This document shows, one piece after another, positions 2,064 through 30,208 of a stretch of DNA of 42,315 bases. Under the pieces are notes generated by a model, which ran no database searches, was not told where the DNA came from, and saw nothing but the letters and a program-made list of their open reading frames with translations. The position numbers and the translations under genes were made by a program. The stretch comes from Saprospiraceae bacterium. GTDB lineage: Bacteria; Bacteroidota; Bacteroidia; Chitinophagales; Saprospiraceae. Within the stretch, counting starts at the first letter, position 1. Each line of letters opens with the position of its first letter. The stretch is taken from the NCBI GenBank assembly GCA_020630555.1, contig JAHDBE010000004.1:1-42315 (forward strand). The letters run 5' to 3'.

Positions 2064-2740
2064 TAACTTATTACATTTGAATGCAGACCGCATTCTGTCT
2101 TTTGACTTCCGGCCCATCTACCGGACCTTTGGTCATGCGTCGGTTTTGTGGTGCATGGTGCGCAGCCTATACTTGTATATCCATACCTCTCCAATGGGTG
2201 AGAGGGAAGTTTAGTTTTGTGAATATATGCGTTAACCATTTTATCGGTCCAATTTATCATCGGATGAAACCTTTCCGTTCCATCCGAAGTCGAACCGATA
2301 TATTTTAAATCTTTCCTTTTATTATTTTGATCCGCTCGAACACCGGTTATCCAAACATCATAATCTCTCCTTATTTTTTCCAATGTGTTTACTTTGTTTA
2401 TTCGACAACAAAGATCAGGATCACAACTAAAAAGAAATTTTCCATCGTCTCGCATTAAATCTATTTTTGCTACATCGGACTTTACTGTTAAAATATTTAA
2501 CTCTAGTTCTTTCTGAATTATATTTCGGTATACTATAGTTTCGGGAAAATGAAATCCAGTATCTAGAAAAATGACAGGAATTGTATTGTCAATGTTAGAT
2601 ATAATATGAAGCATTGGTATACTATGAGTCTGAAATGAAGAACTCATAAAAAGCCGCTTGTTCTCTTTTTTACACTGATTAATATAGGACTCAACAAAAG
2701 AGACTTCTACTTCTATTTTTTCCCATATTTCTTTAATCAT
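2063..2740 (-). CDS. cysH: Adenylylsulfate/PAPS reductase, [4Fe-4S] type
   Basis: Cytosolic enzyme reducing activated sulfate to sulfite, 225 residues. It shows the LDTGFHFPET segment, WITGVRADQ, and the C-terminal ECGLH motif with the catalytic cysteine at residue 217. A Cys-Cys pair at 111-112 plus C193-x2-C196 match the four cluster ligands of the APS-reductase type. E. coli-type PAPS reductases lack these ligands. If it uses APS, the cysC product (PAPS, gene at 15.6-16.2 kb) is not needed for assimilation and may serve sulfation. The gene is embedded between the export gene and the SDR gene, about 11 kb from cysDN, in the same operon direction. Substrate preference (APS or PAPS) remains an inference. 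Confidence 0.88.
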   Translation of the reverse strand: MIKEIWEKIEVEVSFVESYINQCKKENKRLFMSSSFQTHSIPMLHIISNIDNTIPVIFLDTGFHFPETIVYRNIIQKELELNILTVKSDVAKIDLMRDDGKFLFSCDPDLCCRINKVNTLEKIRRDYDVWITGVRADQNNKRKDLKYIGSTSDGTERFHPMINWTDKMVNAYIHKTKLPSHPLERYGYTSIGCAPCTTKPTHDQRSGRWAGSQKTECGLHSNVIS

Positions 2741-13452: not shown

Positions 13453-14709
13453 TTAAATTATCATACCTGCGGCAACCGTATTGTTTGTGCCTTCATCAAC
13501 GAGTATCACAGAACCCGTAATTCGATTCTGTTTGTATTCATCCGCAAATAACGGAAGCGTTGTACGAATCGAGACACGAGCAATGTCATTCGATGTTATA
13601 GTAAAATCCTCTTGGATTCTATGCAGTGAGTTTATATCTAATTTATATCTAATCTCTTTTATCATACATCGAGCTTCTTTAGATGTATGACGGATGGTGT
13701 ATTTTCCCCGAGCTTGTAATGGCTTACTATGGTCAAACCAACAAAGCATTAGTTCAATATCCTGTTCAATATTAGGTTTGTTGTTTGTTCGAACCAGCAT
13801 GTCTCCCCGACTAATGTCAATGTCATCCTCCAATAAAATTGTTACGGATTGAGGAGGAAAAGCTTCCTTGAGTTCGCCATCAAATGAATCGATTTTTGCG
13901 ATTTTGGATGTAAATCCACTTGGTAGAACCATGACCTCGTCCCCTTTTTTAAATACACCTCCAGCAATACGCCCTGCGTAACCTCTATAATCATGAAACT
14001 CATCGGTATAAGGCCTAATAACATATTGCACAGGAAAACGACAATCTATGAAGTTATGATCACTCGAGATATGAACATTTTCAAGATAGTACATTAACGT
14101 GCTACCCTCATACCAATCCATATTCTCGCTTCGATTAACCACATTATCCCCTTTTAAAGCAGAAATAGGAATGAAGCTTACATCGTTTACGTCTAGTTTT
14201 GTAGCAAAAGATTCGAAATCGTCACGGATCTTTTCATAGGCCTCTTCTCTATAATCCACTAGATCCATTTTGTTAATACAAACAACTACGTGCGGAATTT
14301 GTAATAATGAAGCAATAATAGCGTGACGCTTGGTTTGTTCGATTACTCCATGACGGGCATCTACAAGAAGCAATGCTACATTCGCTGTAGATGCGCCAGT
14401 TACCATATTTCGTGTATACTGAATATGTCCAGGAGTGTCCGCGATGATAAACTTTCTCTTTGGAGTACTAAAATACCTGTACGCAACGTCGATCGTTATT
14501 CCTTGTTCTCTTTCCGCTTTTAAACCATCAGTCAGCAATGCCAGATTTACCCCTTCTTCACCACGTTTTTCACTGATTTTTTCAATTTGTTCATACTGAT
14601 CCTGAAAGATAGACTTACTATCATAAAGCAATCTTCCTATCAAGGTGGATTTACCGTCGTCAACGGAACCCGCCGTAGTAAATCTTAAAAGCTCAGTAGA
14701 TGCATTCAT
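13453..14709 (-). CDS. cysN: Sulfate adenylyltransferase large subunit (GTPase)
   Basis: GTPase partner of CysD in APS formation from ATP and sulfate, 418 residues. G-domain motifs are visible: [16 protein letters not shown] (P-loop), the [10 protein letters not shown] switch region, [12 protein letters not shown] (G3) and NKMDLVD (G4). The C-terminal half has translation-factor-like beta domains. There is no fused CysC domain; APS kinase is a separate gene two positions upstream. It is somewhat shorter than E. coli CysN (about 475). It lies 22 bases after cysD. Confidence 0.95.
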
Positions 14710-14731
14710 TTATATATTGTTTTTTTCTTTC

Positions 14732-15637
14732 CTAAAAGTATCCTTGTTTCTTACGGTCCTCCATAGAGGTCTCACTTCTTTTATCATCGGCTCTTCCACC
14801 ACGTTCAGTCATTCGAGAGGTAGCTACCTCTTGGATTATGTCCTCTACACTTTGTGCCTCGGATCTCCAAACACCGGTGCATGTTATATCACCAATAGTC
14901 CTACAACGAACCATCTCTTCAAACACTTTTTCGTTTGGTTTTTTAGGTATATACTCTGAATCGGCCAAAAGAATACCATCTCTTTCTATGACATTTCTTT
15001 TATGAGCGAAATATAGATTGGGAAGAGGTACCTTTTCCTCTGCCAGATATTGCCAAACGTCTAGTTCTGTCCAGTTTGAAATGGGAAAAACTCTAAAGTG
15101 TTCTCCAAAAGATTTTTTTGCATTAAAAAGATTCCAAAGTTCTGGCCTTTGGTTTTTTGGATCCCATTGACCAAATTCGTCACGATGAGAGAAAAATCGT
15201 TCTTTGGCCCGTGCCTTTTCTTCATCACGTCTTCCTCCACCTAAGGCCGCATCATATTTTCCTTTTTCCAATTCATCTAAAAGAGTAAATGTTTGTAATC
15301 CATTACGACTAGCATTTACTCCTTTTTCTTCTGTGACAAACCCTTTGTCTATGGCCTCTTGAACATATCCAACTTTTAATTTAAGACCATATTTTTCTAC
15401 AAGATCGTCTCTAAACTTTATCGTTTCTTCAAAGTTGTGTCCAGTATCAACATGCAAAAGTGGAAAAGGAACTTTAGCAGGATAAAAAGCCTTAACGGCT
15501 AAATAAGTCATCAAAATGGAATCCTTTCCTCCCGAAAAAAGAATGACAGGATTTTCAAATTGTGCGGCCACCTCCCTTAAAACGAAAATAGATTCGCTTT
15601 CTAATTCTCTTAAATGATTTATATTATAGTTGGTCAT
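14732..15637 (-). CDS. cysD: Sulfate adenylyltransferase small subunit
   Basis: ATP-pyrophosphatase subunit that forms APS with CysN, 301 residues, the family length. The PP-loop SGGKDSILMTYLA is at about residues 35-47, followed by HVDTGHNFEET, GGGRRDEEKARAKER and FRVFPISNWTELDVW. It lies in the order cysC-cysD-cysN within a polysaccharide operon. This suggests that activated sulfate is made for the cluster as well as, or instead of, for cysteine synthesis. Confidence 0.96.
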   Translation of the reverse strand: MTNYNINHLRELESESIFVLREVAAQFENPVILFSGGKDSILMTYLAVKAFYPAKVPFPLLHVDTGHNFEETIKFRDDLVEKYGLKLKVGYVQEAIDKGFVTEEKGVNASRNGLQTFTLLDELEKGKYDAALGGGRRDEEKARAKERFFSHRDEFGQWDPKNQRPELWNLFNAKKSFGEHFRVFPISNWTELDVWQYLAEEKVPLPNLYFAHKRNVIERDGILLADSEYIPKKPNEKVFEEMVRCRTIGDITCTGVWRSEAQSVEDIIQEVATSRMTERGGRADDKRSETSMEDRKKQGYF

Positions 15638-15646
15638 ATTATATAT

Positions 15647-16225
15647 CTATTGACAAATAAATTTGTACAAAACGTCTATACTTTCTTCTATTGTTTGGTC
15701 TTTGGTTTTTATCTCTAAACTTGGATTCTCGGGATTTTCAAAAGGGGAGTCAATTCCAGTGAAATTTTTAATCATGCCTTCTCTAGCTTTTTTGTAAAGT
15801 CCTTTGACATCTCGTGCTTCGCATACTTCAAGAGGTGTGTTAATAAATACCTCATGAAAATCCTTTCCTATAATTTTTTTTGCGCTTTCGCGAATGTCAA
15901 TGGTCGGACTAACAAAAGAACAGAGTGTTATTACCCCTGTTTCTTTAAAAAGTTTTGCGACCTCTGATATTCTTCGGATGTTTTCTTTTCGATCTTCTAA
16001 AGAAAACCCAAGATTATTACATACACCAGATCTTATATTATCTCCATCCAAAACCTTAACAAGATATCCTTGGTCATAAAGTTCTTTTTCTACACCTTTT
16101 GCAATTGTGCTTTTACCTGATCCTGATAATCCCGTTAGCCAATACACAGCTCCCTTTTGATTAAGAAGAATCTCTTGTTTTTCTTGTGATAATAATTGGT
16201 CGAAAATAGGATGAATATTCTCCAT
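15647..16225 (-). CDS. cysC: Adenylylsulfate kinase
   Basis: Phosphorylates APS to PAPS, 192 residues. The P-loop GLSGSGKSTIAKG is at about residues 33-45, with the LDGDNIRSGVCNNLGFS segment, the SFVSPTIDIRESA region and KGLYKKAREG. PAPS is the donor for sulfotransferases. With an Fe-S-type CysH in the same cluster, this enzyme points to sulfated glycan, although no sulfotransferase or cysQ is in view. It sits 9 bases after the UDP-glucose dehydrogenase gene. Confidence 0.95.
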   Translation of the reverse strand: MENIHPIFDQLLSQEKQEILLNQKGAVYWLTGLSGSGKSTIAKGVEKELYDQGYLVKVLDGDNIRSGVCNNLGFSLEDRKENIRRISEVAKLFKETGVITLCSFVSPTIDIRESAKKIIGKDFHEVFINTPLEVCEARDVKGLYKKAREGMIKNFTGIDSPFENPENPSLEIKTKDQTIEESIDVLYKFICQ

Positions 16226-16234
16226 TGATTTGTC

Positions 16235-17539
16235 TTAAGGACGCCCGATACTAGAGTAGTTAAAGCCCATTCTTGATAAGTTTTCTTTCTCATAAAGATT
16301 TCTACCATCGAATATTAATGGGTAGTTCATACTTTTCTTCATTCTCTCAAAATCAGGTGTTCTAAATACTGACCACTCTGTACAAATCGCCAAGGCATCA
16401 CAGTTTTCTAAAACATCGTATTGATCCTTACCGAATTGAATCTCGTCTCCATGAATAGTCTTTACATTATCCATAGCTTCTGGATCAAAAGCCTTAATGG
16501 TTGCACCGTGTGAAAGAAGTTTTTTTATAGTGTAGAGTGCTGGGGCCTCTCTAATATCGTCCGTATTTGGTTTGAATGCTAACCCCCATATGGCGATTGT
16601 CTTTTGATTTAAGTCTGGACCAAATTTTTCAATTATTCTATTGGCTAAAATTAATTTTTGATCCTCATTGACATCCATCACCGCATTTAAAATTTTAAAT
16701 GGGTATTCATTTTCCTGAGCCGTTTTATATAATGCTTGGACGTCTTTAGGAAAACAAGACCCCCCATAACCAATACCAGGAAATAAAAAACGTTTACCAA
16801 TTCTTGTATCACTTCCAATTCCTCGCCTTACCATATCTACATTGGCGCCAACTTTTTCACATAGGTTAGCGACTTCATTCATGAATGTAATCTTAGTGGC
16901 CAAAAAGGCGTTTGCTGCATATTTGGTCATTTCAGCAGACTTTTCATCCATAATGATTATTGGGTTTCCTTGGCGAACAAAGGGTTCGTAAAGTCGCGTC
17001 ATGACCTCTTTTGCTCTTTCTGAAGAAGTACCAATTACTACACGATCTGGTTTCATAAAATCATCTACGGCGACTCCTTCTCTTAAGAATTCTGGGTTAG
17101 AAACAACATCAAACAAAGACTCATCAAGGTTCTTTACTAATACAGAGTGGACTTTTTCTGCAGTTCCAACAGGGACCGTACTCTTATCGACGATGACTTT
17201 GTACTCTTTTATAAGTTTTGATAAATCATCTGCTACATTTAAAACAAAACTTAAATCAGCAGAGCCATCAGCACCAGGAGGAGTTGGTAAGGCAAGAAAG
17301 ATAACCTCAGCATGTTGAATGCCCTCTTCTAAAGAAGTCGTAAATTCTAACCGCCCTTGTTTAGTATTTCTTTCGAATAGAATATTAAGACCTGGTTCGA
17401 AAATGGGGACATGTCCATTTCTCATCATCTCTACCTTCTTCTCATCAATATCTACACAGACGACATCATTACCTGTTTCCGCAAAGCAAGTTCCTGTAAC
17501 TAACCCAACATAACCTGTTCCAATGACTGCAATTTTCAT
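16235..17539 (-). CDS. ugd: UDP-glucose 6-dehydrogenase
   Basis: Oxidises UDP-glucose to UDP-glucuronic acid with NAD, 434 residues. Motifs are KIAVIGTGYVGLVTGTCFA, DKSTVPVGTAE, VSNPEFLREGVAVDDF, YAANAFLATKITFMNE and the catalytic cysteine C262 in GYGGSCFPKD. It is the first biosynthetic gene after the antiterminator gene and directly follows an 88-base spacer with strong inverted repeats. P. gingivalis UgdA, part of the Wbp/Vim pathway, is a related dehydrogenase. Here the TviB/WbpA-like gene is the better UDP-GlcNAc candidate. Confidence 0.95.
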   Translation of the reverse strand: MKIAVIGTGYVGLVTGTCFAETGNDVVCVDIDEKKVEMMRNGHVPIFEPGLNILFERNTKQGRLEFTTSLEEGIQHAEVIFLALPTPPGADGSADLSFVLNVADDLSKLIKEYKVIVDKSTVPVGTAEKVHSVLVKNLDESLFDVVSNPEFLREGVAVDDFMKPDRVVIGTSSERAKEVMTRLYEPFVRQGNPIIIMDEKSAEMTKYAANAFLATKITFMNEVANLCEKVGANVDMVRRGIGSDTRIGKRFLFPGIGYGGSCFPKDVQALYKTAQENEYPFKILNAVMDVNEDQKLILANRIIEKFGPDLNQKTIAIWGLAFKPNTDDIREAPALYTIKKLLSHGATIKAFDPEAMDNVKTIHGDEIQFGKDQYDVLENCDALAICTEWSVFRTPDFERMKKSMNYPLIFDGRNLYEKENLSRMGFNYSSIGRP

Positions 17540-17551
17540 AATTCTCTTTTA

Positions 17552-17606
17552 ATGTTTAAATACGGCTTCGCCCTTGATAAGTTGCGGCAACTTATCCTCT
17601 AAACAT
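17552..17606 (-). promoter_or_regulatory. Structured leader between antiterminator gene and polysaccharide genes
   Basis: An outer inverted repeat ATGTTTA/TAAACAT (17552-17558 with 17600-17606) encloses a perfect 9-bp hairpin GATAAGTTG-N3-CAACTTATC (17576-17596). It also encloses a small GGC-TTC-GCC hairpin (17564-17572). As RNA on the minus strand this could form a three-way junction. No U-run follows the stems, so it is not a plain intrinsic terminator. Its position just after a NusG paralog gene suggests a recruitment, pause or processing site; that role is inference. Confidence 0.5.
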
Positions 17607-17627
17607 GTCTAAAATGTAAGCTGAAGT

Positions 17628-18200
17628 TTAAGCTGTTGCTAAAACTTCAAGTGGCCTCAGATTGTCTGAGGATATTTCCATCATCAATTGAATTCCAATT
17701 GTTTGTAATTCTACGATGAAATGTTTTTTATCTAATTGTTCTACCAACACACCTTTTAGTCCCGTCAAATTTCCTGATATCACTTCTACTTTCATTCCTT
17801 CACTGAGTGCACCGCGCTCAGACATCCTGATGTTTTTCTCCCCAGTGATATGTTTAAGAATAGAAATTTCCTCTTCAGGGATAGCGATTAAGTTCTTGCC
17901 TATCTTTAAAAACCCAGAGACGTATTCAGTCTGTAAGACTTTGACATACTCTTCTTTGTTGATCTTTACAAAGACATAGCAATTAATCAATGGTTTCTCA
18001 TATGTCTTTCGGGATCTAGAATACTCCTTTGCTACTTTAATCAGCGGAGTATACGAAGTGATACCTTTTTTTCTTAGGCTATTTTGAACGTACTTTTCAC
18101 ATTTGAATCGTGTGTAAACGGCGAACCATCTCTTCTCGTCTTCGACTAGTTGATTTATTATATGTTCTTTTCTACTCAACGCTCTTAAATCTTTTCCCAT
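17628..18200 (-). CDS. UpxY-like NusG-family transcription antiterminator
   Basis: NusG paralog of 190 residues. The N-terminal NGN domain starts at RWFAVYTRFKCEKYV (about residue 24) with PLINCYVFVKI and YVSGFLKIG. A C-terminal KOW motif GMKVEVISGNLTGLKG is at about residues 134-149. In Bacteroides, UpxY proteins prevent premature termination in the leader of their own capsule operon. Placement as the second gene of the operon, before the structured 88-base spacer, fits this role. The start ATG (18200) is 16 bases inside the upstream regulator gene, so the two are probably co-translated. General NusG is unlikely given the context. Confidence 0.87.
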   Translation of the reverse strand: MGKDLRALSRKEHIINQLVEDEKRWFAVYTRFKCEKYVQNSLRKKGITSYTPLIKVAKEYSRSRKTYEKPLINCYVFVKINKEEYVKVLQTEYVSGFLKIGKNLIAIPEEEISILKHITGEKNIRMSERGALSEGMKVEVISGNLTGLKGVLVEQLDKKHFIVELQTIGIQLMMEISSDNLRPLEVLATA

Positions 18201-18718
18201 AATAAAAGAGGGTCACTATCTAAATGACCCCATGCAATGTTTTCATACTCACCAGACTCGTATATCACATATCGTATTTTTCTAGAAATGTAATCCTCAA
18301 CCTTTTCAATCAATTTTATCAAGTAATCTTTTTTAATATCACCGACAAAAACTAGATCAATAATTTGACTATTTCGTCCTCGAGCAAAATCACCAGTAAC
18401 AAATACTTTCTCTACATTTCCAAGTCGTTTAACGATATCCTCAATAATTCGATCAAATCCAAGGTGTTTTAAAACAAGATTATGAACCTCATTATATAAA
18501 GGATGGTCTGTGTTTGCTTTAAATATCTTTTTATTGCCTCGAGAAAAGGATCGTAACATACCGGCTTTTTCGAATCGATTTAACTCAAGACGAATGGCGT
18601 TAGAAGATTCTCCGAATTCTGATTCTAAACCCCGTAAATAGGAGGTGTTACTGCTGTTTAAGAAAAACTTTAAAAGCAGTTTTACGCGTGTTTTTGATGA
18701 TATTAATGTTTCTATCAT
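18185..18718 (-). CDS. Winged-helix regulator fused to nucleotidyltransferase-like domain
   Basis: A 177-residue protein with an N-terminal winged-helix DNA-binding domain (about 1-70; ISSKTRVKLLLKFFLN, SSNAIRLELNRFEKAGML) and a C-terminal MNT-type nucleotidyltransferase-like domain (about 85-177). The latter keeps VTGDFARGRNSQIIDLVFVG, a degenerate form of G-S-x-A-R-G...SDxDL with only one of the paired acidic residues, so catalysis is doubtful. It is the first gene of the polysaccharide operon and overlaps the UpxY-like gene. A 21-base dyad lies immediately before its start codon and may be its own operator. Specific function is not established. Confidence 0.75.
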   Translation of the reverse strand: MIETLISSKTRVKLLLKFFLNSSNTSYLRGLESEFGESSNAIRLELNRFEKAGMLRSFSRGNKKIFKANTDHPLYNEVHNLVLKHLGFDRIIEDIVKRLGNVEKVFVTGDFARGRNSQIIDLVFVGDIKKDYLIKLIEKVEDYISRKIRYVIYESGEYENIAWGHLDSDPLLLWEKI

Positions 18719-18743: not shown

Positions 18744-21700
18744 TCAAGAATTATCCAGACTTTTGACTTGGAAATATCGACTTTCTGGATGGCTCAAATA
18801 CCAACCACTAACAGAGGCAGCGGGATACATGGCAAAATTTTCAGTTAAACTGATCCCTATATTTTTCTCTACATCTAACAAATCAAATAGTTTTCTTTTC
18901 TCACTATGAATTGGGCATGCTGGATATCCAGGGGCAGGCCTAATTCCTTGATAATTTTCTTTAATTAATTCCTCATTAGTAAGACTCTCATTTTGGGCAT
19001 AACCCCAATATTCTTTTCTCACTTTTTCATGAAGCCATTCAGTGGTGGCTTCCGCCAATCGATCAGCTAGGGATTTTAATAATATGGCGTTGTAGTCATC
19101 ATTCTGACTTTCAAATTCTTTGACCATTTTTTCAATTCCAATACCCGCAGTAACCGCAAAAGCGCCCACATAATCTACCTTTTTAGAGTCCATAGGAGCA
19201 ATAAAGTCACTTAGGCAATAATAGGGCAGACCCTTGGCTTTTTTACGGGTTTGACGCAGGTGGTTTAAAGTCGAAATAATGTTATTAGAATCTTGGTTTT
19301 GATAAACATTTGTTTCTTCATTCTTACTAAATGCAGGGAATATTCCAAAAATTGCTTTTGGCGAAAGCCAAGACTCACTAACAATTTTTAGTAACATATT
19401 TTGCGCATCATTAAACAGTTTGTTGGCTTCATCACCAACGATTTTATCTAAAAGAATGGCCGGATACTTTCCAGCAAGTTGCCAACTTTTAAAAAATGGC
19501 GTCCAGTCAATATACTTTATCACCTCATCAAGGTCTATGTGGTGAATAACTTTTACTCCTAAAAAATTAGGTATGAAAGGTTCATAACAGGACCAGTCTA
19601 TCTTAAACTTATTCTCTCTTGCAAAATCAATGCTTACAAACTCTTTATTGACATTTGCTACTTTTCGGGCCTCTCGAATTTTTTGGTATTCGCCTTTTAC
19701 TTCGGACACAAAAAGGTCTTTGTCATCTGTTTTTAAACTTAATAACTGACTTACTACTGGCACAGCTTTCGAAGCATCGAGGACGTGATGGACCGGTCCC
19801 TTATATTCTGGGTCTATTTTAACGGCCGTATGTGTTTTAGATGTTGTTGCCCCGCCAATTAGTAAAGGAACGTTTAATTGATTTTTGGTCATCTCTTGGG
19901 CGACATAAACCATTTCGTCCAAGGAAGGTGTAATTAAACCACTTAGTCCTATTATGTCGACATTTTTAGAGATGGCCTCCTCTATTATTCTATGTTTAGG
20001 GACCATGACGCCCAAGTCTATAATTTCATAGTTATTACAGGCTAAGACTACTGCCACAATATTTTTACCAATATCATGAACATCCCCCTTAACCGTAGCC
20101 AATAGAATTTTACCTTTGGAGTTACTGCCACTTTCCTTCTGAGCATCGATATATGGTGTTAGAATGGCTACGGCCTGTTTCATCACACGAGCACTTTTTA
20201 CTACTTGAGGAAGAAACATTTTACCAGCGCCAAATAAATCACCAACTATATTCATTCCATCCATTAATGGACCCTCAATTACTGATAATGGATTTGGATA
20301 CTTAAGTCGGGCTTCCTCAATATCACGATCTATGAAATCGGTAATACCTCTAACTAAGGCATGAGATAATCTTTCTTCAACAGAATTTTCTCTCCATGAT
20401 AAATCTTTTACCAACTTCTTTCCTTCTCCCTTTACTTTAGCAGCAAATGCAACGAGTTCGTCGGTCGCATTTTTATGTCGATTGAATAAAACATCTTCGA
20501 CTTTCGTCAAAAGATCCTTGGGGATTTCTTCATATACTTCAATCATTCCGGCATTAACAATGCCCATGTCCATACCTGCTTTTATAGCGTGAAATAAAAA
20601 GGACGAGTGCATGGCTTCTCTAACTAAATTATTACCACGAAAAGCAAAAGAAATATTACTTACGCCGCCACTTACTTTGGCTCCGGGACATTCGTTTTTT
20701 ATTTGACGAGTCGCTTCGATAAAATTGATTGCATACTCATTGTGTTCCTCAATTCCTGTGGCTATTGCAAATATATTTGGGTCAAAAATGATATCTGTAG
20801 GATCCCAATTCAGAGTATTGACTAATATATTATATGCGCGTTTGCAAATGTCGACTTTACGATCTATAGTTTCTGCTTGACCATTTTCATCAAAAGCCAT
20901 GACCACCGCAGCGGCACCATATCTGCGAATTAAGCGCGCTTGATTTATAAATTCTTCTTCACCTTCTTTTAAAGAAATAGAGTTGACTATTGGTTTACCC
21001 TGAACACATTTTAAACCAGCTTCTATTACAGAAAATTTAGATGAATCGACCATAATAGGAAGGCGAGCTATGTCGGGTTCTGACATCATTAAATTAAGAA
21101 ACAAGGTCATGGCATTTTCAGAATCCAGCATGCCCTCATCCATATTGACATCAATAATTTGGGCACCTCCTTCGACTTGTTGCTTAGCCACAGAAAGGGC
21201 TTTTTCAAATTGCTCTGACAAAATAAGCTTCGCAAATTTTCTAGAACCTGTTACATTAGTACGTTCACCGATATTGATAAAGTTCATGTCCTCTCTTACG
21301 ATAAGAGCTTCTAAACCACTGTAGGCGGATGTGGCATTGTTTTTTAATAAAGGCCTAGGGTTAACACCCTCTATCGCAAGCGCCATTTGGCGAATATGTT
21401 CTGGAGTGGTTCCACAGCATCCTCCAACTATGTTTACCAAACCGCTTTCTGCAAAATCTTTAATTAAGATTTCCATTTCGGATGGTCCTTGATCATAATT
21501 TCCAAACTCATTTGGTAATCCAGCGTTAGGGTGCGCACTTACATAACAATCAGCAATTTTAGAAAGGGTCTCGATATGAGGTCTCATTTCCTTTGCACCT
21601 AAGGCACAATTCAGACCAATGCTTAATAGATTCATGTGCTTTACAGAAACCCAGAAAGCCTCTGCAGTTTGACCGCTAAGAGTTCTTCCACTTGCATCTG

Positions 21701-22328
21701 TAATGGTACCGGAAACCATAATAGGAACCTCTACCATACGCTCATTACATAAAGAGTCTATCGCAAAAAGGCAGGCTTTACAATTTAGTGTATCAAAGAC
21801 CGTTTCGACGAGAAAGATTTCTACACCACCATCTAAAAGACCTTTTGCTTGTTCGTAGTATGCTTCCACAAGTTGGTCAAAGTTAATGGCTCTGTAACCC
21901 GGATTGTTAACATCTGGAGAAATGGAGGCTGTTTTATTTGTAGGACCTAAAGAGCCGGCAACATACCGCGGTTTGTTTACGGAATAAAACTTATCAGCTG
22001 CTTTTCGAGCTAATTTGGCGGAAGCCAAATTTAATTCATAGGCCAGATGACTCATTTGGTAATCTTCCATAGAAATGGAAGTCGAGTTAAAGGTGTTCGT
22101 TTCTATAATATCACTTCCAGCCTCGAGATACTTGCAGTGAATGTCATAAATGATCTCCGGTTGAGTTATGGATAAAAGATCATTGTTTCCTTTTAATTCG
22201 CAATGAAAATCTTTAAACCTTTCTCCCCGATATCCATTTTCGTCAAGTTTATAGGATTGTATCATGGTGCCCATGGCCCCATCCAGAAGAAGTATCCTAT
22301 TTTGGAGTTGTTCTTTAAGTTGTTTCAT
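18744..22328 (-). CDS. metH: Cobalamin-dependent methionine synthase
   Basis: Transfers a methyl group from methyltetrahydrofolate to homocysteine through B12; 1194 residues, near full length (E. coli 1227). All modules are present. The homocysteine domain has zinc cysteines in GLNCALG (about 240) and GGCCGTTP (about 303). The pterin-binding domain has [12 protein letters not shown]. The B12 domain has the DVHDIGKN base-off histidine (about 748) and [13 protein letters not shown]. The reactivation domain has [15 protein letters not shown] and [16 protein letters not shown]. The start overlaps the stop of the upstream barrel gene as TAATG. No cobalamin riboswitch can fit at this junction. Confidence 0.97.
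19358..19371. repeat. Dispersed palindrome TTGGC-N4-GCCAA
   Basis: Arms TTGGC and GCCAA with centre GAAA, inside metH, in a different reading frame (Trp-Leu-Ser-Pro-Lys) from most copies, which argues against a pure codon effect. Confidence 0.6.
22012..22031. repeat. Dispersed palindrome with 8-bp arms
   Basis: Arms AATTTGGC and GCCAAATT with centre GGAA, inside metH (codons Asn-Leu-Ala-Ser-Ala-Lys). Confidence 0.6.
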
Positions 22329-24106
22329 TAATAATCCAACTTCAATCGATTTATGTTTGCTCTGAAACCAAGTCCGATATATTGGGTTTTCAGATCTAAA
22401 TCGTCCAATTCGCTGTCCCTGTTTCGATATATAAAATCCAAATCGATAAACATGTTATCGTAAATTTCGTAACTCATTTCTAAGGAAAGTTGTAATACAT
22501 CCATGAGTATTCCTTGACCAACGGAATTCCCAAAATCCATCACACGACTTTCATTTGGCAAAAGTACATTTCCTCCCCAATTTTGACCATCGTCTTCTCC
22601 GTATTGAGCCATCATGGCCCGACCATTGAGATTTAAACGATTAGTGGCCTTATAATTTAAGGAAAGAATTAGCTCTTTAAAATTCGCACCCAAAGGATGA
22701 GCTAGTGTTTGATTGAAATGACTGTAATTAGACACCGAAGTGTTAAAACCTTCTAATGTATCACGGTGTGTATATGTAAAAGGTCTCACATAATTATATT
22801 CAATCTGTCCGTCCAACTGGTCAATGCCCGCGACATCCATATATTTAATACCAGCTTGAAAACCATATTTATTGGCCCACCATCCGGAGCCATCTCTAAT
22901 TTCATTTAACTTAAATTCATCCAGAATAACCTGTCCGTAAAAAGAAAACTTTTTAAAAGCATTCCATTTTGCATTAAGCCCAATTAGAACATTGTCAGGA
23001 CTGTCTAAATTAAATTCGACCGTACGGTAAAGGATAACAGGGTTTAAGTATTGAAACTCAAAATTGTTTTCTCGGGAAAACATGACTGTTTCAAACAATC
23101 CGATTTCAATATTTTCTTTAGGTTTAAAACTCAAATAGTGAGAGGCCATATATTTTTTATCCAAAAGATTGTCTCCAGGGTTTTCAAATTGAGAAACAGG
23201 AGAGAGTTCGGCGAAAATATTCTGGTAAAGTAGCTTCCAAACCTTGGTGCGGAACTTTAAATAAAAGTAGTTTGTCCCATAATCGTCCAGCAACAAAGAG
23301 TTGTATCCATGGCCGATAAAATGTCTCCCATGACCTAATTCAACAGATATACTTTTAGAGACATTAAGACCGACGTAGGCCGTCGATAATGGAAAATCAT
23401 ATCCGTTTACATCATCAGCGACAGAACTTTGAAAAAGTTTATAACTGCTATGTCCCGGAATGGCCTGAAACCTCTGAATTCTCTCTTCAACATGAGCTAA
23501 AAAGGAACCTTGAGATTCTAGAAGATCGGTATAGAAGTAAACCTTATCATCGATACTTCCAAATAATCGGATTCCTCTTGTATTTTGAAAAAGAAGATCC
23601 TCACTTTCCGAATCTTGGCCATATCTAAGGTTAAGGATAGGATCAACAGAAATATGAAAATCAGGACTATTTATTTCGAAAAATCGTCCTGGCCTTTTGT
23701 AAAAATATTTTAAAAAGGCTGAAGATTTTTCAATCGGTTTTGATTCTTCGTACTCTGAACCTGAGTCTAGGGTATAAAATATACCAGCACTATCAACATA
23801 AACTTTATTAGGCTCATTGTAAGAAATGTTCTGTTCGGATTTCGAGTCTTGGACACCAATTAAAGAATTTAATTTTTGTATCCTGAACTTATCATGTTCA
23901 GATAAAATCTCGGCATTTGAGATAAAATCAGCAATTTCGGTTCGACTATAATATTTCAATCCGGTGTGAAAATTTTCATTTCCAAGGCCCTTAATATCAA
24001 TTCTGTCAATTGTATGAGCAGCATTTAAATCGCGGTGAATATAACTGGATTGCCCAAAACCTGAGACTGCGAAAAAAACGACAAAAATGAATGAGAAATA
24101 TTTCAT
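22328..24106 (-). CDS. RemB/Wzi-like outer-membrane beta-barrel protein
   Basis: A 592-residue protein with a signal peptide (residues 1-18, cut near GFGQ). A long series of alternating aromatic strands follows from about residue 140 to the C-terminus, which ends in a strand ([11 protein letters not shown]). Stretches such as [55 protein letters not shown] and [12 protein letters not shown] resemble proteins annotated as gliding protein RemB or Wzi-type capsule assembly proteins in Bacteroidota. The assignment is by recalled resemblance. Function could be surface-polysaccharide attachment or gliding. It is two bases after lpxK and coupled to metH. Confidence 0.62.
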
Positions 24107-24107
24107 T

Positions 24108-25169
24108 TTAATATTTAAAGTTTAACAACTCCGATTTTATAAGTTGATCGAAGATTTCACCATCAGAAAATTTAAAACGCACTTCAATTGGAAGTATAAA
24201 AATAGGGAGATTTAAGGCCTGAATTTGTGGGGCTAATAATTCGAGCCTCGTGGCGTCTTTTTCAGTGGTGATAATGCATTTATTATTAGTTTCTATATTA
24301 TCAAAAAGCACCCTTAGATCTTCAATTTCTTTTTGCGTATAAAGATGATGGTCCTCAAATTCCACATTATGTATATGGTTTACTTTGGACTCCATATAAT
24401 GCTCAAGGTAACTAGTATTGGCTATAGCGCTAATTAAAACAATTTCATCAAAGTCATCTATTCGTACCCTTTTGCTTGGGTCAAAGAAAAAATATGGCAA
24501 ACCATAGACATAATCCGTAAAAAATAAAGATTGATAATCTTGAATTTGTAATTTTTTTCGGACTAATTCTTGATCTATTTCTTGCTCATTATTAGGGCAC
24601 TTGGTCACAATGATGATGTTAGCACGATTAGCTGATTTGGCGCCTTCTCTTAATCGACCCGCTGGAAGAATGTAGTCATCAGTATATAAATCGTCATATG
24701 GTGTTAGGAGTATATTAAGAGCGGGTTTGACAGATAAATGCTGAAAGGCATCGTCTAATATAATTGTCTTTAAGTACGGATAAGATTTTAGCATCAAAGG
24801 AATACCTAATGCTCTACTTTCAGAAACGGCCACAACAACACCCGGATATTTACGAGCATATTGTAAGGGTTCGTCTCCAGCTTGAGTCACATTATCTGTT
24901 CTTTTAACGAGTCTGAATCCTTTGGATTTTCTTTTATACCCTCTGCTTAATACTCCTATCTGAAGATAGGGGGCAAGTAATCTTATAAGATATTCAGTAT
25001 GTGGTGTTTTTCCAGCTCCACCGACACTTAAATTTCCTACTGAAATTACCGGTGTAGAGAAACTTGTCGAACGCAAAACACCGGCCTCGTATAAAAGATT
25101 TCGTGTATGAACAATAAACCCATACACCAAACTAAAAGGAATCAATAAAATGCGACCTAAAGAATTCAA
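24108..25169 (-). CDS. lpxK: Tetraacyldisaccharide 4'-kinase
   Basis: Lipid A pathway kinase at the inner membrane, 353 residues. It has an N-terminal hydrophobic anchor (about 5-20), an unusual Walker A VGNLSVGGAGKTPHTE, LSRGYKR, GDEPLQYA and LDDAFQH. No ATG fits: the coding frame is best opened by TTG at 25169-25167, since upstream codons offer no ATG or GTG and the kinase motif lies about 45 residues in. A candidate -7 box lies about 24 bases upstream. Confidence 0.93.
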   Translation of the reverse strand: MNSLGRILLIPFSLVYGFIVHTRNLLYEAGVLRSTSFSTPVISVGNLSVGGAGKTPHTEYLIRLLAPYLQIGVLSRGYKRKSKGFRLVKRTDNVTQAGDEPLQYARKYPGVVVAVSESRALGIPLMLKSYPYLKTIILDDAFQHLSVKPALNILLTPYDDLYTDDYILPAGRLREGAKSANRANIIIVTKCPNNEQEIDQELVRKKLQIQDYQSLFFTDYVYGLPYFFFDPSKRVRIDDFDEIVLISAIANTSYLEHYMESKVNHIHNVEFEDHHLYTQKEIEDLRVLFDNIETNNKCIITTEKDATRLELLAPQIQALNLPIFILPIEVRFKFSDGEIFDQLIKSELLNFKY

Positions 25170-25192
25170 ACCTATTAGAAAATTTTTACATA

Positions 25193-25200
25193 CAAAAGTA
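25193..25200 (-). promoter_or_regulatory. Candidate -7 promoter box for lpxK
   Basis: TACTTTTG on the minus strand matches the Bacteroidota -7 consensus TAnnTTTG and lies 24 bases before the TTG start of lpxK. No convincing -33 TTG is found at normal spacing, so support is weak. Confidence 0.3.
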
Positions 25201-25208
25201 ATTCAAAT

Positions 25209-26501
25209 TCAGACATTTTGAGTAGACATACATTGAATTCCGATTTTACATTGAAGGCATAGGGATTTAGAACAATGTTCATTTTTAAGTTCTATCAAAG
25301 CTTGAGTATCTAAGGCATTTTTAATTGGGACATTGTATCCTTTCCAATGTGAAATTATTCTATTTTTTTCAGGAGAACATTGTTCCATTAAGTGGATGGC
25401 GTGACTCTTTAATTCTTCTAAATCATGAAATCTTGCATATGAGAAAGTAAAAGGTACAATGGCGTTAATAACTAGTCGTTCAACAGCCGCTCTACCTATT
25501 GTTTTATGGGAGGATTTTCCTGTACTTGATTCAAACCTATAATGGGTATTCCAGTAGGGTGTGGGTTTTGATTGGCATAGTTTGAGAATGTCTTGGAAAT
25601 TGATTTTTGATTTATATAAATCAATAATTCCTTTGGATAGGATAAGTTTTGACAGTTGAGCAATTCTGATAGTTGGAAAACCGGCAGGTCTCATTTTAGA
25701 AAACTGCCATTCATTTCTTGCCATTGGATTAAGACAGTGCTTCCTTTTTAAAAACCTATATTCTGATTTTAATTCAATCACATATTCATGTGAAGTCTCA
25801 TTAGGAAGTAAACCGCTTTGTCCAAACAAAAGGGCCTCTATGAGAATCGGGCGATCGTAATATTTTCTTAAAAACAATTTTGGGCATTTTTGGCTTAAAG
25901 CCAAAAAGGAGTTTTTATTAACTCGACCCCCAAGACTCATGAAAAGAAAGTCTAAGAAACTCTGGTCCCAATCTCCATTATTTGACTTAACAGTATAAAG
26001 AACTTCTTTGTCTTTTCTAATTAATCGAGATATGGCTTTTTCGGACAAAGTGTCTATCCAGTGTATTTGTGGAACTTTCCTAATAAAGGGACTACAAGGA
26101 ATCCAAGAGCTAGACATCATGAGTTTTAAATACCGACTTGTTGTCAATTTTGGTACACGATTCTTCAAGACTAGAGTAGGTAATTCAGCACCTAACGAAT
26201 TTCTAACAATTTTGTCATTATATAGGACGACATGTAATATCACATTGTTGTATGCTGGATCCAAGTGATGGGCATGACGGTACCAATCCGATGAGTTTAT
26301 GTGAATTTCTATATGGCCGACCCAAAGTGTGCCATCAATTTTTATTCTTGCTTGCTTGAAATCGGGACCGGAATCTTCATTTAGAAAACCCGGATTTATA
26401 ATCACAGTTGGCAAGCCGTTTACAGTAGTTAACTCTGTAGAATCAAACTTTTGTAGTTTCCATAAAAATTGAATTAGGTCTTCACCAATCTTAACAGGCA
26501 T
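25209..26501 (-). CDS. DUF2851 family protein
   Basis: Conserved Bacteroidota protein of unknown function, 430 residues. It is recognised by the N-terminal block GLPTVIINPGFLNEDSGPDF, WVGHIEIHINSSDWYRH and the aspartate in LDPAYNNVILHVV. The C-terminus carries a cysteine cluster C-x4-C-x2-C-x4-C (CSKSLCLQCKIGIQC) that could bind a metal. There is no signal peptide. A TTG one codon upstream is possible, but the ATG at 26501 is preferred. It lies six bases after folA. No function is assigned. Confidence 0.85.
   Translation of the reverse strand: MPVKIGEDLIQFLWKLQKFDSTELTTVNGLPTVIINPGFLNEDSGPDFKQARIKIDGTLWVGHIEIHINSSDWYRHAHHLDPAYNNVILHVVLYNDKIVRNSLGAELPTLVLKNRVPKLTTSRYLKLMMSSSWIPCSPFIRKVPQIHWIDTLSEKAISRLIRKDKEVLYTVKSNNGDWDQSFLDFLFMSLGGRVNKNSFLALSQKCPKLFLRKYYDRPILIEALLFGQSGLLPNETSHEYVIELKSEYRFLKRKHCLNPMARNEWQFSKMRPAGFPTIRIAQLSKLILSKGIIDLYKSKINFQDILKLCQSKPTPYWNTHYRFESSTGKSSHKTIGRAAVERLVINAIVPFTFSYARFHDLEELKSHAIHLMEQCSPEKNRIISHWKGYNVPIKNALDTQALIELKNEHCSKSLCLQCKIGIQCMSTQNV
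25887..25907. repeat. Dispersed palindrome with 10-bp arms
   Basis: Arms TTTTTGGCTT and AAGCCAAAAA around a single A, inside the DUF2851 gene. This is the longest perfect copy in the window. Confidence 0.65.
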
Positions 26502-26507
26502 CAAGGA

Positions 26508-26999
26508 TTATTTCCTTGTTAATACCTTAAATCTGTAGGAATACACATTTTTTTCGTCTGGGCCATGTTCTTCACACGATGTCTCGTCCCATTCAGACAA
26601 TTCTAACTTAGGAAAAAACACATCTCCATCTACGTCTAAATCGACTTCCGTCAAATATAATTTATCCCAAAGATCTTGAGTCTGAGTATAAATATGTCCT
26701 CCTCCAATAATAAAGCATTCCTTTGCTCCCGTTTCTTGTGCCACACGTAGCGATTCTTCAATGCTATGAACAACAAAGGCATTTGAGACTATATAGAAAG
26801 GATTTCTCGTGATAATGATGTTCGTTCTTTTTGGAAGGGGACGACCTATGGACTCGAAACAATTTCTACCCATGATAATAGGATGATCAGAAGTTATTTT
26901 TTTAAAGTACTTCAGATCTGCAGGAAGATACCATGGGATATCATTATCCTTTCCGATGACATTATTTTTTGCAGTAGCAACAATACAAGAAATGATCAT
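26508..26999 (-). CDS. folA: Dihydrofolate reductase
   Basis: Reduces dihydrofolate with NADPH, 163 residues, the usual length. Motifs are VATAKNNVIGKDNDIPWYLPADLKYFK, IIMGRNCFESIGRPLP and the glycine-rich CFIIGGGHIYTQ. The acidic active-site residue is the aspartate in PADLKYF. It starts two bases after the mrdA stop, so it sits at the tail of the mre operon. No thyA lies beside it, although folA is often paired with thyA. Confidence 0.95.
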   Translation of the reverse strand: MIISCIVATAKNNVIGKDNDIPWYLPADLKYFKKITSDHPIIMGRNCFESIGRPLPKRTNIIITRNPFYIVSNAFVVHSIEESLRVAQETGAKECFIIGGGHIYTQTQDLWDKLYLTEVDLDVDGDVFFPKLELSEWDETSCEEHGPDEKNVYSYRFKVLTRK

Positions 27000-27001
27000 T
27001 C

Positions 27002-28858
27002 TTAATTCTTTGGAATAAGGTCAATATTATTAATCATTTCTTCTTTCCACAAATTACCTGGGGCAATTTCTTTTCGAATGTATTTTTCTATCATCAAACT
27101 CGCTATTGGCGCGGCGATACTTCCACCTGCACCGGCGTTTTCAACATAAACAGCAATGGCGATTTTTGGGTCATCCTTAGGGGCAAAAGCAAAGAATACA
27201 GAATGGTCCTCACCATGAGGATTCTGGGAAGTACCTGTCTTACCTACAATATCTATTCCTCTCACAAATGCCATTTGTGCCGTACCTGATCGAATGACTC
27301 GCGCCATTCCATCTATGACTGGTGGGAAATGCACACTATCCACCCCTACAAAGTTCTTTTTGGCGAAAGCCAAAGAGAGAGAATCAGAAATTTCAGAGTA
27401 GTCCTTTAGAAAATGTGGAGTCTTAAAATAGCCTCTATTTGCAATAATCGCCGCTAGATTTGCCATTTGTAAAGTCGTTAATTGCAATTCTCCCTGTCCA
27501 ATTCCTAAGGAAAGGATATATGTAGACCTCCAACCACTACGAACGGAAGCGTATAACCTATCATAATACTTAGAGCTAGGGAGATACCCCTTATTTTCTA
27601 AATAACTGTCCACACCAAGAGCATTACCCAGACCGAAATCTTCAAGACGTGATTTAAGTTTATCCAGACCAAGACCTGGTTTTGAATACCCAAATTGTTC
27701 AACATACTCTCGCATGAGCTGATAGTAATATGAATTACAAGAGTGTTCCAGAGCTATAGAAATATTATATGGAGTGGGGTGACCATGACATCCTTGTGTA
27801 AATCCCCTTTTTTTGTTGAGGGTATATTCTCCATCGCAATAAATGGTTCGTCTTGCATAAGTAATTCCGTCTTGTAATGCGATCAAGGAAAAAATTGGTT
27901 TAAAAATGGATCCTGGGGGATATTTGGACAAGACAGATCGATCTAAAAATGGACGATTTATGGAATCTTGCAATAGAGTTCTAAACGCTTTTCCTCTATT
28001 CTGGTTAAGAGTGAGCAAGTTAGGATTGTAGCCAGGTGCACTAATAATTGATAAGATTTCGCCAGTACTGGGTTCGAGTGCGACGATACTCCCCTTTTTA
28101 TTTTTCATTAATGATTCGCCGTAACTCTGAAGTTCGAGGTCTAAGGTCGTCTTTAAATCTTTTCCAGAGATGGCCATCGAATCAAGTTTTCCTCCAGAAT
28201 ATTCGCCCATGTCTCTACCTAAATAATCTTTAAGAATAAAACGAAATCCTTTTTTGCCACGCAAAGCCTCTTCATAAGTTTTTTCGAGACCGCTTACTCC
28301 CAAGTAATCGCCCACGGCGTATTGTGGCTTTTCATCGATTACTTTCTGATTAACCTCGCCCATATATCCTAACACATGAGGAGCGCTGGAATGCGGATAT
28401 GATCTAATATATCTTTGTTCGGGATAAAATCCTGGAAATTTAAAGAGGTGTTCTTGAAATTTAGCAAAGGTCTTTGGGGTAATCCTAGAGATACATGTAA
28501 AAGGAACAGATTTACTAAACCGAGGACTTTTCCAGTTTCGTGTGATCAGGTTTCCAAAACTATCAATCGGAAGATCTAATAATTCACAGAATAGAGCTGT
28601 GTCCATTTCTGATGAGAGTTGATTATGGATCACTTTTAAATCATAAACGGGATCATTGAGAACCAAAAGTTTTTCGTATCGATCGTAAATAAGTCCACGG
28701 CTTGGAAACTGTGTTTGTTTATCGATGGCATATTTACTAGCCAAATCTTTGTATTCAGGACTAAAAATCTGAATTCGTGCTGCTTGTAATATTAGGCCTA
28801 ATCCAGCCACTAAAAAGACCGTGTAAATCACACTAAATCTATTTGACATGGCACTCAT
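27002..28858 (-). CDS. mrdA: Penicillin-binding protein 2 (elongasome transpeptidase)
   Basis: Class B PBP of 618 residues that cross-links peptidoglycan during side-wall growth. It has a single N-terminal membrane anchor (about 8-27), then a dimerisation region with SRGLIYDRYEKLL. The transpeptidase domain has S317-I-F-K320, S373-C-N375 and K540-T-G. It overlaps mreD as ATGA. In many Bacteroidota rodA follows this gene; here folA follows instead. Confidence 0.95.
   Translation of the reverse strand: MSAMSNRFSVIYTVFLVAGLGLILQAARIQIFSPEYKDLASKYAIDKQTQFPSRGLIYDRYEKLLVLNDPVYDLKVIHNQLSSEMDTALFCELLDLPIDSFGNLITRNWKSPRFSKSVPFTCISRITPKTFAKFQEHLFKFPGFYPEQRYIRSYPHSSAPHVLGYMGEVNQKVIDEKPQYAVGDYLGVSGLEKTYEEALRGKKGFRFILKDYLGRDMGEYSGGKLDSMAISGKDLKTTLDLELQSYGESLMKNKKGSIVALEPSTGEILSIISAPGYNPNLLTLNQNRGKAFRTLLQDSINRPFLDRSVLSKYPPGSIFKPIFSLIALQDGITYARRTIYCDGEYTLNKKRGFTQGCHGHPTPYNISIALEHSCNSYYYQLMREYVEQFGYSKPGLGLDKLKSRLEDFGLGNALGVDSYLENKGYLPSSKYYDRLYASVRSGWRSTYILSLGIGQGELQLTTLQMANLAAIIANRGYFKTPHFLKDYSEISDSLSLAFAKKNFVGVDSVHFPPVIDGMARVIRSGTAQMAFVRGIDIVGKTGTSQNPHGEDHSVFFAFAPKDDPKIAIAVYVENAGAGGSIAAPIASLMIEKYIRKEIAPGNLWKEEMINNIDLIPKN
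27359..27374. repeat. Dispersed palindrome TTGGC-N4-GCCAA
   Basis: Arms TTTGGC and GCCAAA with centre GAAA, inside mrdA (codons Leu-Ala-Phe-Ala-Lys). Confidence 0.6.
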
Positions 28859-29376
28859 GATCGGGCACTTTGGATAATTTGATAAATAACAATAACAACG
28901 AATGAAGCAACGAAACTAAATATCGAACGCATAATTATATCAAAGTAATATATAAACGAAAAGGCTTCGACGCTAAAATAGAAAAGGAGATAAATCCCTA
29001 AGAGGATACTTGAGTAACTTAAAAACCAAGGCAGCCCCATAGTCCCTAAGTTGGGTGTTTTATCCATTTTATACCCTTCATAAGGTTCAATGGCCCTCAA
29101 TAAATACGGTCTTAAGAACGCCATTAAAGTAGCCGCACTTGCATGAATTCCGGGAGAATCATAAAACATATCAATGGTTAGTCCTGAGATAAATCCTATT
29201 AGTATAACCAAGAACCTTGGTGTCCGAAAAGGTAGGACCATAATAAACAAAGGATATACTATGAAATGAATAAAGTCAAACTCGCCAAAGCTCAAATCTA
29301 TACGTTTGAATAGTACAACCTGCACTGCTATGCTAAACAACCAGGCAAAAACTCCTTTGAATACATCACTGTTCAT
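28855..29376 (-). CDS. mreD: Rod shape-determining protein MreD
   Basis: Small integral membrane protein of 173 residues with about five hydrophobic helices, including FAWLFSIAVQVVLF and FIHFIVYPLFIMVLPF. The central segment GLTIDMFYDSPGIHASAATLMAFLR, with conserved D and G-H residues, is typical of MreD. It lies between mreC (11-base overlap) and mrdA (ATGA overlap). Sequence conservation in this family is low, but the context is decisive. Confidence 0.92.
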   Translation of the reverse strand: MNSDVFKGVFAWLFSIAVQVVLFKRIDLSFGEFDFIHFIVYPLFIMVLPFRTPRFLVILIGFISGLTIDMFYDSPGIHASAATLMAFLRPYLLRAIEPYEGYKMDKTPNLGTMGLPWFLSYSSILLGIYLLFYFSVEAFSFIYYFDIIMRSIFSFVASFVVIVIYQIIQSARS

Positions 29377-30193
29377 TCTGACTTAGCTCTAATTGTGATT
29401 GTTCTTCTTTGAAGTTATTTTTTATGACATAAACTGTATGTGCTGTATAGAGGTTACCGATAAGTTCGACTTCAATCTCATAATTATCAGACCCTGAAGG
29501 TATTTTAAAGGATTTAATTTTACCAATCTCTATACCTTTTGGAAACATAGTAGAAAATCCGCTCGTGACGATTTTGTCTTCAGTGCTGATATCAACGTGC
29601 TTTGGAATGGCTTCTAAATGCATAATTCGTGGATCAAAACCCCTCCACACAAGATTTCCAAAGTAGTTTTTATTTTCTACCATAGCACTGATTCTAGTTT
29701 GAGAGTTCAATAAACTCAGGACTTGCGCAAATCGACTGCTGACATTTTTAACGATGCCTACAAGGCCATCGTCGGTTATGACGCCTAAGCCCGGAATGAT
29801 ACCATGGTCGGTACCTTGGCATAGAGTTAAATGGTTGTTTCTAAGTCTTGTGGAGTTAGAACAAATCGTTGCAGGCACGATTTCATAGTGTATTAATGAA
29901 CTATCTTCTTTAACGGCTTCATTGATAATAGCTAACTCAGGGATATTTAAAATTCTTTGGAGGAGTTTGGCATTTTCAACACGAAGACTATCATTGACTC
30001 TTCTTAGCTCAAGATAATTCTGAACATTATTAACACGGTTATTGATTTCACCGCTTATTAAACTAGAAGAATGTAAATAAATATCCCTCTGCTTTGTATT
30101 ACGATTTACGATTAGGTTGAAACAAAAAACCTCGAGTAATACAAACAATAGGATTGAACCATATCGTGCAAAAAACAAAAGAAGATTTTGCAT
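29366..30193 (-). CDS. mreC: Rod shape-determining protein MreC
   Basis: Periplasmic scaffold of the elongasome, 275 residues. It has one N-terminal membrane helix (about 8-27), then a short coiled-coil stretch (about 50-85, NNRVNNVQNYLELRRVNDSL). The beta-rich domain carries CQGTDHGIIPGLGVITDDGLVGIV and the VTSGFSTMFPKGIEIGKI motif. It is 15 bases downstream of mreB. Confidence 0.95.
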   Translation of the reverse strand: MQNLLLFFARYGSILLFVLLEVFCFNLIVNRNTKQRDIYLHSSSLISGEINNRVNNVQNYLELRRVNDSLRVENAKLLQRILNIPELAIINEAVKEDSSLIHYEIVPATICSNSTRLRNNHLTLCQGTDHGIIPGLGVITDDGLVGIVKNVSSRFAQVLSLLNSQTRISAMVENKNYFGNLVWRGFDPRIMHLEAIPKHVDISTEDKIVTSGFSTMFPKGIEIGKIKSFKIPSGSDNYEIEVELIGNLYTAHTVYVIKNNFKEEQSQLELSQNEQ

Positions 30194-30208
30194 GAGTTAT
30201 GGTTTAGA

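Follow-up and report, generated by a model that had tools for sequence, protein, structure and literature searches.

The spacer considered here lies within a window of 42,315 nucleotides (the whole stretch of Saprospiraceae DNA that was analysed) and separates two minus-strand genes. As upxY (17628..18200) ends at 17628 and ugd (16235..17539) starts at 17539, the spacer covers exactly positions 17540-17627, and since both flanking genes are minus-strand genes, its transcript was likewise read as the minus strand. The upxY product is a NusG paralog of 190 amino acids, which was identified as a member of the UpxY family by model NF033644 (antiterm_UpxY, 123.8 bits, cut-off 100) and which matches Pfam NusG with 61.3 bits. 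Tested with the RfaH model TIGR01955 (61.0 bits, cut-off 144.5) and the LoaP model NF033641 (56.4 bits, cut-off 125), the protein was assigned to neither of these families. Solved structures matching UpxY by sequence were NusG chains only, and its relatives in the wider contig collection are distant, comprising ten loci of which eight are titled Nitrospira.

The first gene past the spacer, ugd, encodes a UDP-sugar dehydrogenase of the UDP-glucose type and is followed by cysC, cysD, cysN and more sugar and export genes, whereby the polysaccharide operon beside upxY was found to comprise ugd, DegT, epimerases, a Polysacc_synt protein and an SLBB export protein. That cysC, cysD and cysN (13453-16225, minus strand) as well as a PAPS-reductase-domain gene (2063-2740, minus strand) reside within this sugar operon suggests a sulfated polysaccharide. 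Upstream of upxY, housekeeping genes (mreB, mreC, a penicillin-binding protein gene, the DHFR gene, lpxK and metH) form a tightly packed minus-strand run from mreB to metH (18744-31240) with upxY at its end. Counting open reading frames of at least 90 amino acids, no other gap in the co-directional run between MreB (31240) and the left window end is as large as the 88-nt spacer. As upxY closes the packed housekeeping run, UpxY production may be constitutive, and polymerase may continue from the run into the polysaccharide genes.

The start of upxY is overlapped by a minus-strand reading frame (18185-18718) for a protein of 177 amino acids, which gave no Pfam or NCBIfam match at E<=0.001 and whose N-terminal part resembles, by eye, a winged helix and whose C-terminal part a nucleotidyltransferase. 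A homolog of it is found on the locus in 29 of the 85 upxY places with enough upstream sequence, and it is a possible candidate for a UpxY partner. The Bacteroidota -7 motif TAnnTTTG occurs in the window at chance frequency (55 found, 53.8 expected).

Anatomy of the spacer

Three inverted repeats had been described for the spacer, namely a 9-bp hairpin, a small GC-rich hairpin and a 7-bp outer repeat, and all of them were located, each on the minus strand. The larger hairpin, GATAAGTTG-CCG-CAACTTATC, occupies 17576..17596 and is a perfect palindrome of 10+1+10 nt, which as RNA possesses 9 bp and a 3-nt loop; palindrome and covariation in relatives point to a putative nascent RNA hairpin of the pause type. 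Its 3' arm region (17576..17585) reads GCAACTTATC in the window and mostly GCGACTTATC in the relatives, is less variable than the 5' arm and is a candidate for upstream-duplex contact. The small hairpin, from here on the mini-hairpin, is GGC-GAA-GCC at 17564..17572, which resembles the ops element, is near-invariant in relatives, shows compensatory stems and is predicted to fold in exposed non-template DNA. Two bases past it, the T at 17562, which is equivalent to T11 of ops and belongs to a T column both in the family and in class-wide sites, is the predicted pause position. The window hairpin ends 13 nt ahead of this T, which is close to the spacing that allows a hairpin to stabilise a pause, and 23 nt separate the T from the ugd start. 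The outer 7-nt repeat (5' arm 17600..17606, 3' arm 17552..17558) is present in the window and not conserved.

Folded alone, the minus-strand spacer reaches -16.6 kcal/mol (z -1.94, 8 of 200 shuffles at least as stable), and this single-sequence fold shows the three-way layout. The plus-strand reading (z -1.10, 35 of 200 shuffles) was discarded, given that both neighbouring genes are encoded on the minus strand. With DNA parameters the mini-hairpin yields -1.5 kcal/mol, a value reached by 46 of 200 shuffles, and as it possesses just three base pairs at this stability, its fold on the polymerase is argued from analogy. The spacer structure is real, modestly better than chance in the single sequence, and the strong evidence for it is comparative.

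The scan for intrinsic terminators (GC-rich stem followed by a T run) found none in 17400-17800, which bears out the preliminary description in that a standard terminator was said to be absent. Rfam gave no match in the window at gathering score. Within the own genome, no second copy of spacer or palindrome was found, the palindrome being unique even when up to three mismatches are allowed, hence neither is a dispersed repeat.

Conservation and covariation in the Saprospiraceae

The UpxY protein was searched against 199 Saprospiraceae genomes, most of them drafts, and at E<=1e-12 a match was obtained in 145 of them. Behind upxY, a common motif was identified in most of the 29 nearest relatives; 22 of these, picked by eye and pattern, formed together with the window a first alignment of 23 sites, on which the covariance model R1 was built, and R1 was then searched against all 199 genomes (E<=0.01 per genome). 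It returned 135 sites in 110 genomes; provided that the rough E-values are right, chance alone would give about two. In the window, which is among the 23 training sequences, the match delimiting the whole conserved element covers 17555..17599 on the minus strand (50.9 bits) and is the sole one in its own genome at E<=0.01, the second best of the window (16.4 bits) falling on the same place on the opposite strand. Among all sites, 98 of 135 are located on the same strand, 24-377 nt past the end of a listed UpxY match, and without the training sequences 75 of 112 are still downstream of upxY. A UpxY match is present in 107 of the 110 element-bearing genomes as compared to 145 of 199 overall (Fisher p 2e-19), the element occurring in three genomes without such a match.

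Subsequently, 51 of the 52 upxY places lacking an R1 match were searched at the lax threshold of E<=3, with one place at a contig end (G052) left out. Among the 28 matches, 22 (in 21 loci, 16 of these added loci at E<=0.03) lie 32-187 nt downstream of upxY on its strand, and six lie elsewhere. By model, the element is absent from 31 of 150 listed upxY places, G052 included, some of which are contig ends or more distant NusG paralogs. At two loci (L204 and L207) tandem NusG paralogs were seen, by eye, as another NusG-like reading frame nearly directly behind the upxY-like gene.

The element consensus begins with a stem-loop whose 3' arm is GCGACTTATC; three bases later comes GGCGAAGCC, followed by one base of any kind and T, so that the element ends in GGCGNAGCC-N-T. 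Across 97 distinct upxY-adjacent sites the mini-hairpin is near-invariant and the column equivalent to 17562 is T in 97%, and in upxY-adjacent sites the GAC of the 3' arm is conserved to 95% (G), 97% (A) and 97% (C) with T at 94% in the second-last column, figures which are conditional on the model search, conservation at the columns used by the model being in part a result of how the sites were selected. The block GACTTATC stands at a constant distance to GGCG, and the outer end of the stem varies, lying 1 to 7 nt before GGCG. Among the family loci, the gene behind the element varies and the upxY ahead of it stays.

Compensatory changes in relatives had been set in advance as the test of the proposed structure, and they are present in the hairpin. 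When the hairpin arms of 134 distinct sites were compared, own arms reached a stem score of 5.85 as compared to 4.78 for swapped arms (0 of 40 permutations reach the own value); for the 56 sites without ACTTAT in the 3' arm the values are 5.69 and 4.10, and with the 5' side shuffled the best stem drops from 5.56 to 3.52 (134 sites). A contiguous stem scoring at least 4 is found in 109 of the 134 sites and in 25 there is none. These swap and shuffle tests were added because column counts suffer from the variable loop length: loops range from 3 to 10 nt, which is the allowed range, and loop and 5' arm are highly variable. When 98 sites were aligned by fitting to the model, an alignment that leans towards the model, 74.1% of the cells are paired; displacing the partner arm by one to three columns leaves at most 46.0%, and in 10 of 12 pairs both sides have changed. 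The helix-1 count (65.4% of cells paired) probably understates the stem, as loop length differs between sites. On the first, ungapped alignment of 23 sites, RNAalifold predicted the mini-hairpin and not the larger hairpin.

For the mini-hairpin, compensatory swaps were likewise found, namely AGC-GAA-GCT in several genomes, GCC-GGA-GGC in L016 and GCC-GAA-GGC in L201, each keeping the G-N-A loop, and at one further locus (L006) the stem is intact and the loop departs from the rule (GGC-AGA-GCC). The mini-hairpins of L172 and L200 were seen by eye and stand outside every count. The three-way layout fared differently: the window sequence does fold so on its own, but the enclosing helix pairs equally well between sequences (own pairs 5.63, cross pairs 5.56, reached by 44 of 200 permutations), so that the three-way junction was rejected as a conserved unit. 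As judged from the sequence comparison, the conserved unit is made up of hairpin, mini-hairpin and pause-type T.

Related sites in the Bacteroidia and known NusG-paralog signals

Across the class, R1 at E<=0.001 matched three of 295 genomes, all three of them Saprospiraceae, and gave no match in the 292 genomes of other families, UpxY itself being found in 93 of the 295 at E<=1e-25. For a wider view, 90 upxY loci outside the Saprospiraceae, from 33 families, were compiled (30 + 40 from the UpxY listing and 20 added; left out were second copies per genome and the majority of the places with the lowest scores). The pattern [GA]GCGNAGC[CTA] occurs within about 200 nt of upxY in 39 of these loci and in 19 of the 33 families, as compared to a mean of 1.56 and a maximum of 5 in 200 shuffles and to 2 on the reverse strand. 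In the remaining 51 loci the strict pattern is absent, and in the two families with top UpxY scores (f34 and f67) it is present in one of six loci. At 37 of the 39 sites a T follows two bases past the pattern, a column outside the search pattern, and GACTNA is found within the 20 nt ahead at 28. Depending on the family, the site precedes or follows upxY. Pairing of the upstream arms with the GACTNA side gave 5.04 for own and 4.32 for swapped arms (0 of 300 reach it) in 35 contexts with short stems and long loops; four contexts (L306, L294, L215 and L244, cut short or chance-like and without a proper GACTNA block) were left out, and as dropping them favours the loading-site reading, column frequencies in the 35 contexts lean upward. 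A search of plasmids gave one uninformative match of 41 bases in a Prevotella record. Among the literature matches listed, titles and beginnings of abstracts report no such element outside Bacteroides.

The E. coli ops element of 12 nt, GGCGGTAGCGTG, is described in PMC5995543 as carrying a pause-inducing TG at positions 11-12 and forming a non-template DNA hairpin closed by C3:G8, with polymerase pausing at C9 and U11. As the window reads GGCGAAGCCGTA and not GGCGGTAGCGTG, its element is ops-like, not ops. Both have in common GGCG at positions 1-4, a small hairpin closed by C3, which in the element is predicted to form in non-template DNA, and the pause-type T at position 11, which in the window is the T at 17562; both are located near surface polysaccharide genes and have a NusG paralog as partner. 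The G at position 12 is shared by 26 of the 39 class-wide sites, where it comes next after T11, whereas the window possesses an A. Unlike ops, which has a GGTA loop, the element has a GNA triloop (GGCGNAGCY), and as this triloop replaces the GGTA loop, there is no T6. Moreover, the element has two additions, a nascent-RNA hairpin that covaries and an upstream block of the GACT type, its partner is UpxY and not RfaH, and it is usually located beside the regulator gene. A title cited by PMC10527192 presents d(GCGAAGC) as an extraordinarily thermostable DNA mini-hairpin.

Compared with these systems, the element is best read as a variant of the known UpxY/ops-type signal, standing near the Bacteroides UpxY sites. 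Bacteroides UpxY is said to recognise exposed non-template DNA together with upstream duplex DNA, and nascent RNA hairpins reportedly help it, first in pausing and then in letting go. These sites share the UpxY family with the element, which has candidate counterparts of all three. An interaction of UpxY with the upstream duplex was observed according to passages of PMC12691694, which cites Saba 2024. The B. fragilis leaders lie upstream of upxY, as stated in passages of PMC7819879, whereas the Saprospiraceae site lies downstream, and the two are likened by anatomy, not by sequence.

Whether Bacteroidia UpxY proteins load at one ancestral signal is a question on which we are evenly divided. 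This signal would be made up of a nascent-RNA pause hairpin, GACTnA as a block in the upstream duplex, and an ops with a GNA triloop (GGCGNAGCY-N-T-G), three parts whose placement before or after upxY would depend on the family. Since the E. coli ops frame is common to both and the loop differs, it would represent an ancestral or convergent form of the RfaH signal, and the origin of ops-type hairpins becomes testable by means of triloop versus GGTA loop. If the proposal is true, the position of the Saprospiraceae site after upxY puts the polysaccharide operon that follows under the control of the gene closing a housekeeping run, and scattered copies of the signal let one UpxY serve several operons in trans. 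The choice of long surface-sugar operons that a cell expresses is made by NusG paralogs, and to our knowledge the landing sites of these proteins have been little mapped outside E. coli RfaH and Bacteroides. The element supplies exact candidate pause positions, and a signal located by upxY in 19 of 33 families outside the Saprospiraceae would permit UpxY regulons to be predicted from sequence.

A proposed pause and loading site for UpxY

The early suggestion that the NusG paralog acts at the spacer is well supported by the 98 of 135 sites located just downstream of upxY and by the covariation of the arms, and going by these genomic data, the spacer very probably is the place where the paralog engages the transcription complex. 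Most likely it serves as a pause and UpxY loading site, in which a nascent-RNA hairpin is joined to an ops-like hairpin of the non-template DNA; that polymerase pauses, that the mini-hairpin forms as DNA, that UpxY binds and that antitermination results is what we infer here. The proposed mechanism assumes that polymerase leaving upxY would make the 9-bp hairpin, which would stabilise a pause upon arrival at the T of GGCGAAGCC-G-T (17562). Within the paused complex, GGC-GAA-GCC of the non-template DNA would become exposed on the polymerase surface and fold as a GNA-loop mini-hairpin, the putative counterpart of the RfaH ops hairpin, whereby the conserved GAC block would lie in double-stranded DNA immediately ahead of the bubble on its upstream side. 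Here, UpxY would read the mini-hairpin and probably also the adjoining upstream duplex, GACTTAT. Finally, UpxY would bind to the polymerase, free the pause and stay as an anti-pausing or antitermination factor throughout the long polysaccharide operon.

By analogy with ops, the mini-hairpin most likely acts as non-template DNA rather than as folded leader RNA. The reverse idea, that UpxY binds the nascent RNA hairpin as LoaP does and that GGCGAAGCC is part of the RNA target, draws on the covariation of the hairpin, on the conserved sequence in its 3' arm and loop (TGCGAC) and on the LoaP work, which, according to passages of PMC12691694, uses the dfnA leader hairpin and thus likewise concerns a NusG paralog acting with a leader hairpin. 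Yet the spacing from mini-hairpin to T11 is that of the ops DNA element, the ops-like stretch and not the RNA hairpin is most conserved, loop and 5' arm vary greatly, and GGCGNAGC recurs class-wide by shorter stems and longer loops; with a window protein far below the LoaP cut-off (56.4 against 125), we regard an RNA target as unlikely. A terminator or attenuator which closes the upxY transcription unit and has to be overcome by UpxY would fit the position at the largest gap (88 nt) of the co-directional run and the leaders on which Bacteroides UpxY acts, which terminate early as stated in passages of PMC7819879; several relatives (e.g., L097 and L121) also show short T runs soon past the mini-hairpin. 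Such a function appears distinctly improbable, as the window, which alone was scanned, gave no terminator-like match in 17400-17800 and no family profile column past T11 exceeds 68% T.

Two further explanations take the spacer for a structure of another kind. As a folded leader RNA it would form the three-way junction and control ugd translation or sense a ligand, and indeed the window sequence folds so with its predicted pause T 23 nt from the ugd start; but the enclosing helix is not conserved, Rfam gave no match, the downstream gene varies and upxY stays, and in other families a related element is located upstream of upxY, all of which leaves this function very improbable. It is hardly credible that the 21-nt palindrome is a double-stranded operator bound by a dimeric repressor or activator, since, perfect as it is in the window, it is unique in the genome with up to three mismatches, it is imperfect in the relatives, whose arms covary as stem partners over variable loops, and it is accompanied by the asymmetric GGCGNAGCC-N-T.

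Sites away from upxY

The remaining 37 of the 135 R1 sites have no listed upxY in the 1.2 kb ahead of them. In three cases (G066, G104 and G192) the site follows a listed upxY of the same contig and strand at a distance of 1.7 to 4.7 kb, and some sites are near contig ends, where upxY is possibly cut off, as in L138, in which ugd follows. For 30 of the 37 sites one downstream protein was scanned (L070, L133, L154, L155, L157, L159 and L161 were left out; for L135, L138 and L162 the second downstream reading frame was taken and not the first), and 26 of the 30 proteins are of polysaccharide, export or sulfation type. They comprise SLBB export proteins, Wzc-like kinases, glycosyltransferases, CpsB/CapC and DegT, UDP-sugar dehydrogenases, epimerases, Gfo/Idh/MocA proteins and ABC-2 transporters as well as acyl- and hexapeptide transferases and APS kinase. 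As 26 of these 30 sites precede polysaccharide-type genes, UpxY may act in trans on other surface operons. Behind the other four, unrelated genes were found, coding for a DUF4261 protein, a LytTR protein and two phage-type integrases (L140:1154-2914 and L162:856-2004, both minus strand).

Two single loci deviate in their arrangement. In L027 (681-755, plus strand) GGCGAAGCC is located at the tip of a long, terminator-like hairpin with T-rich and A-rich arms and with no upxY ahead. In L188, one upxY is followed by tandem copies of the element (1488-1531 and 1570-1613, plus strand), which are 82 nt apart.
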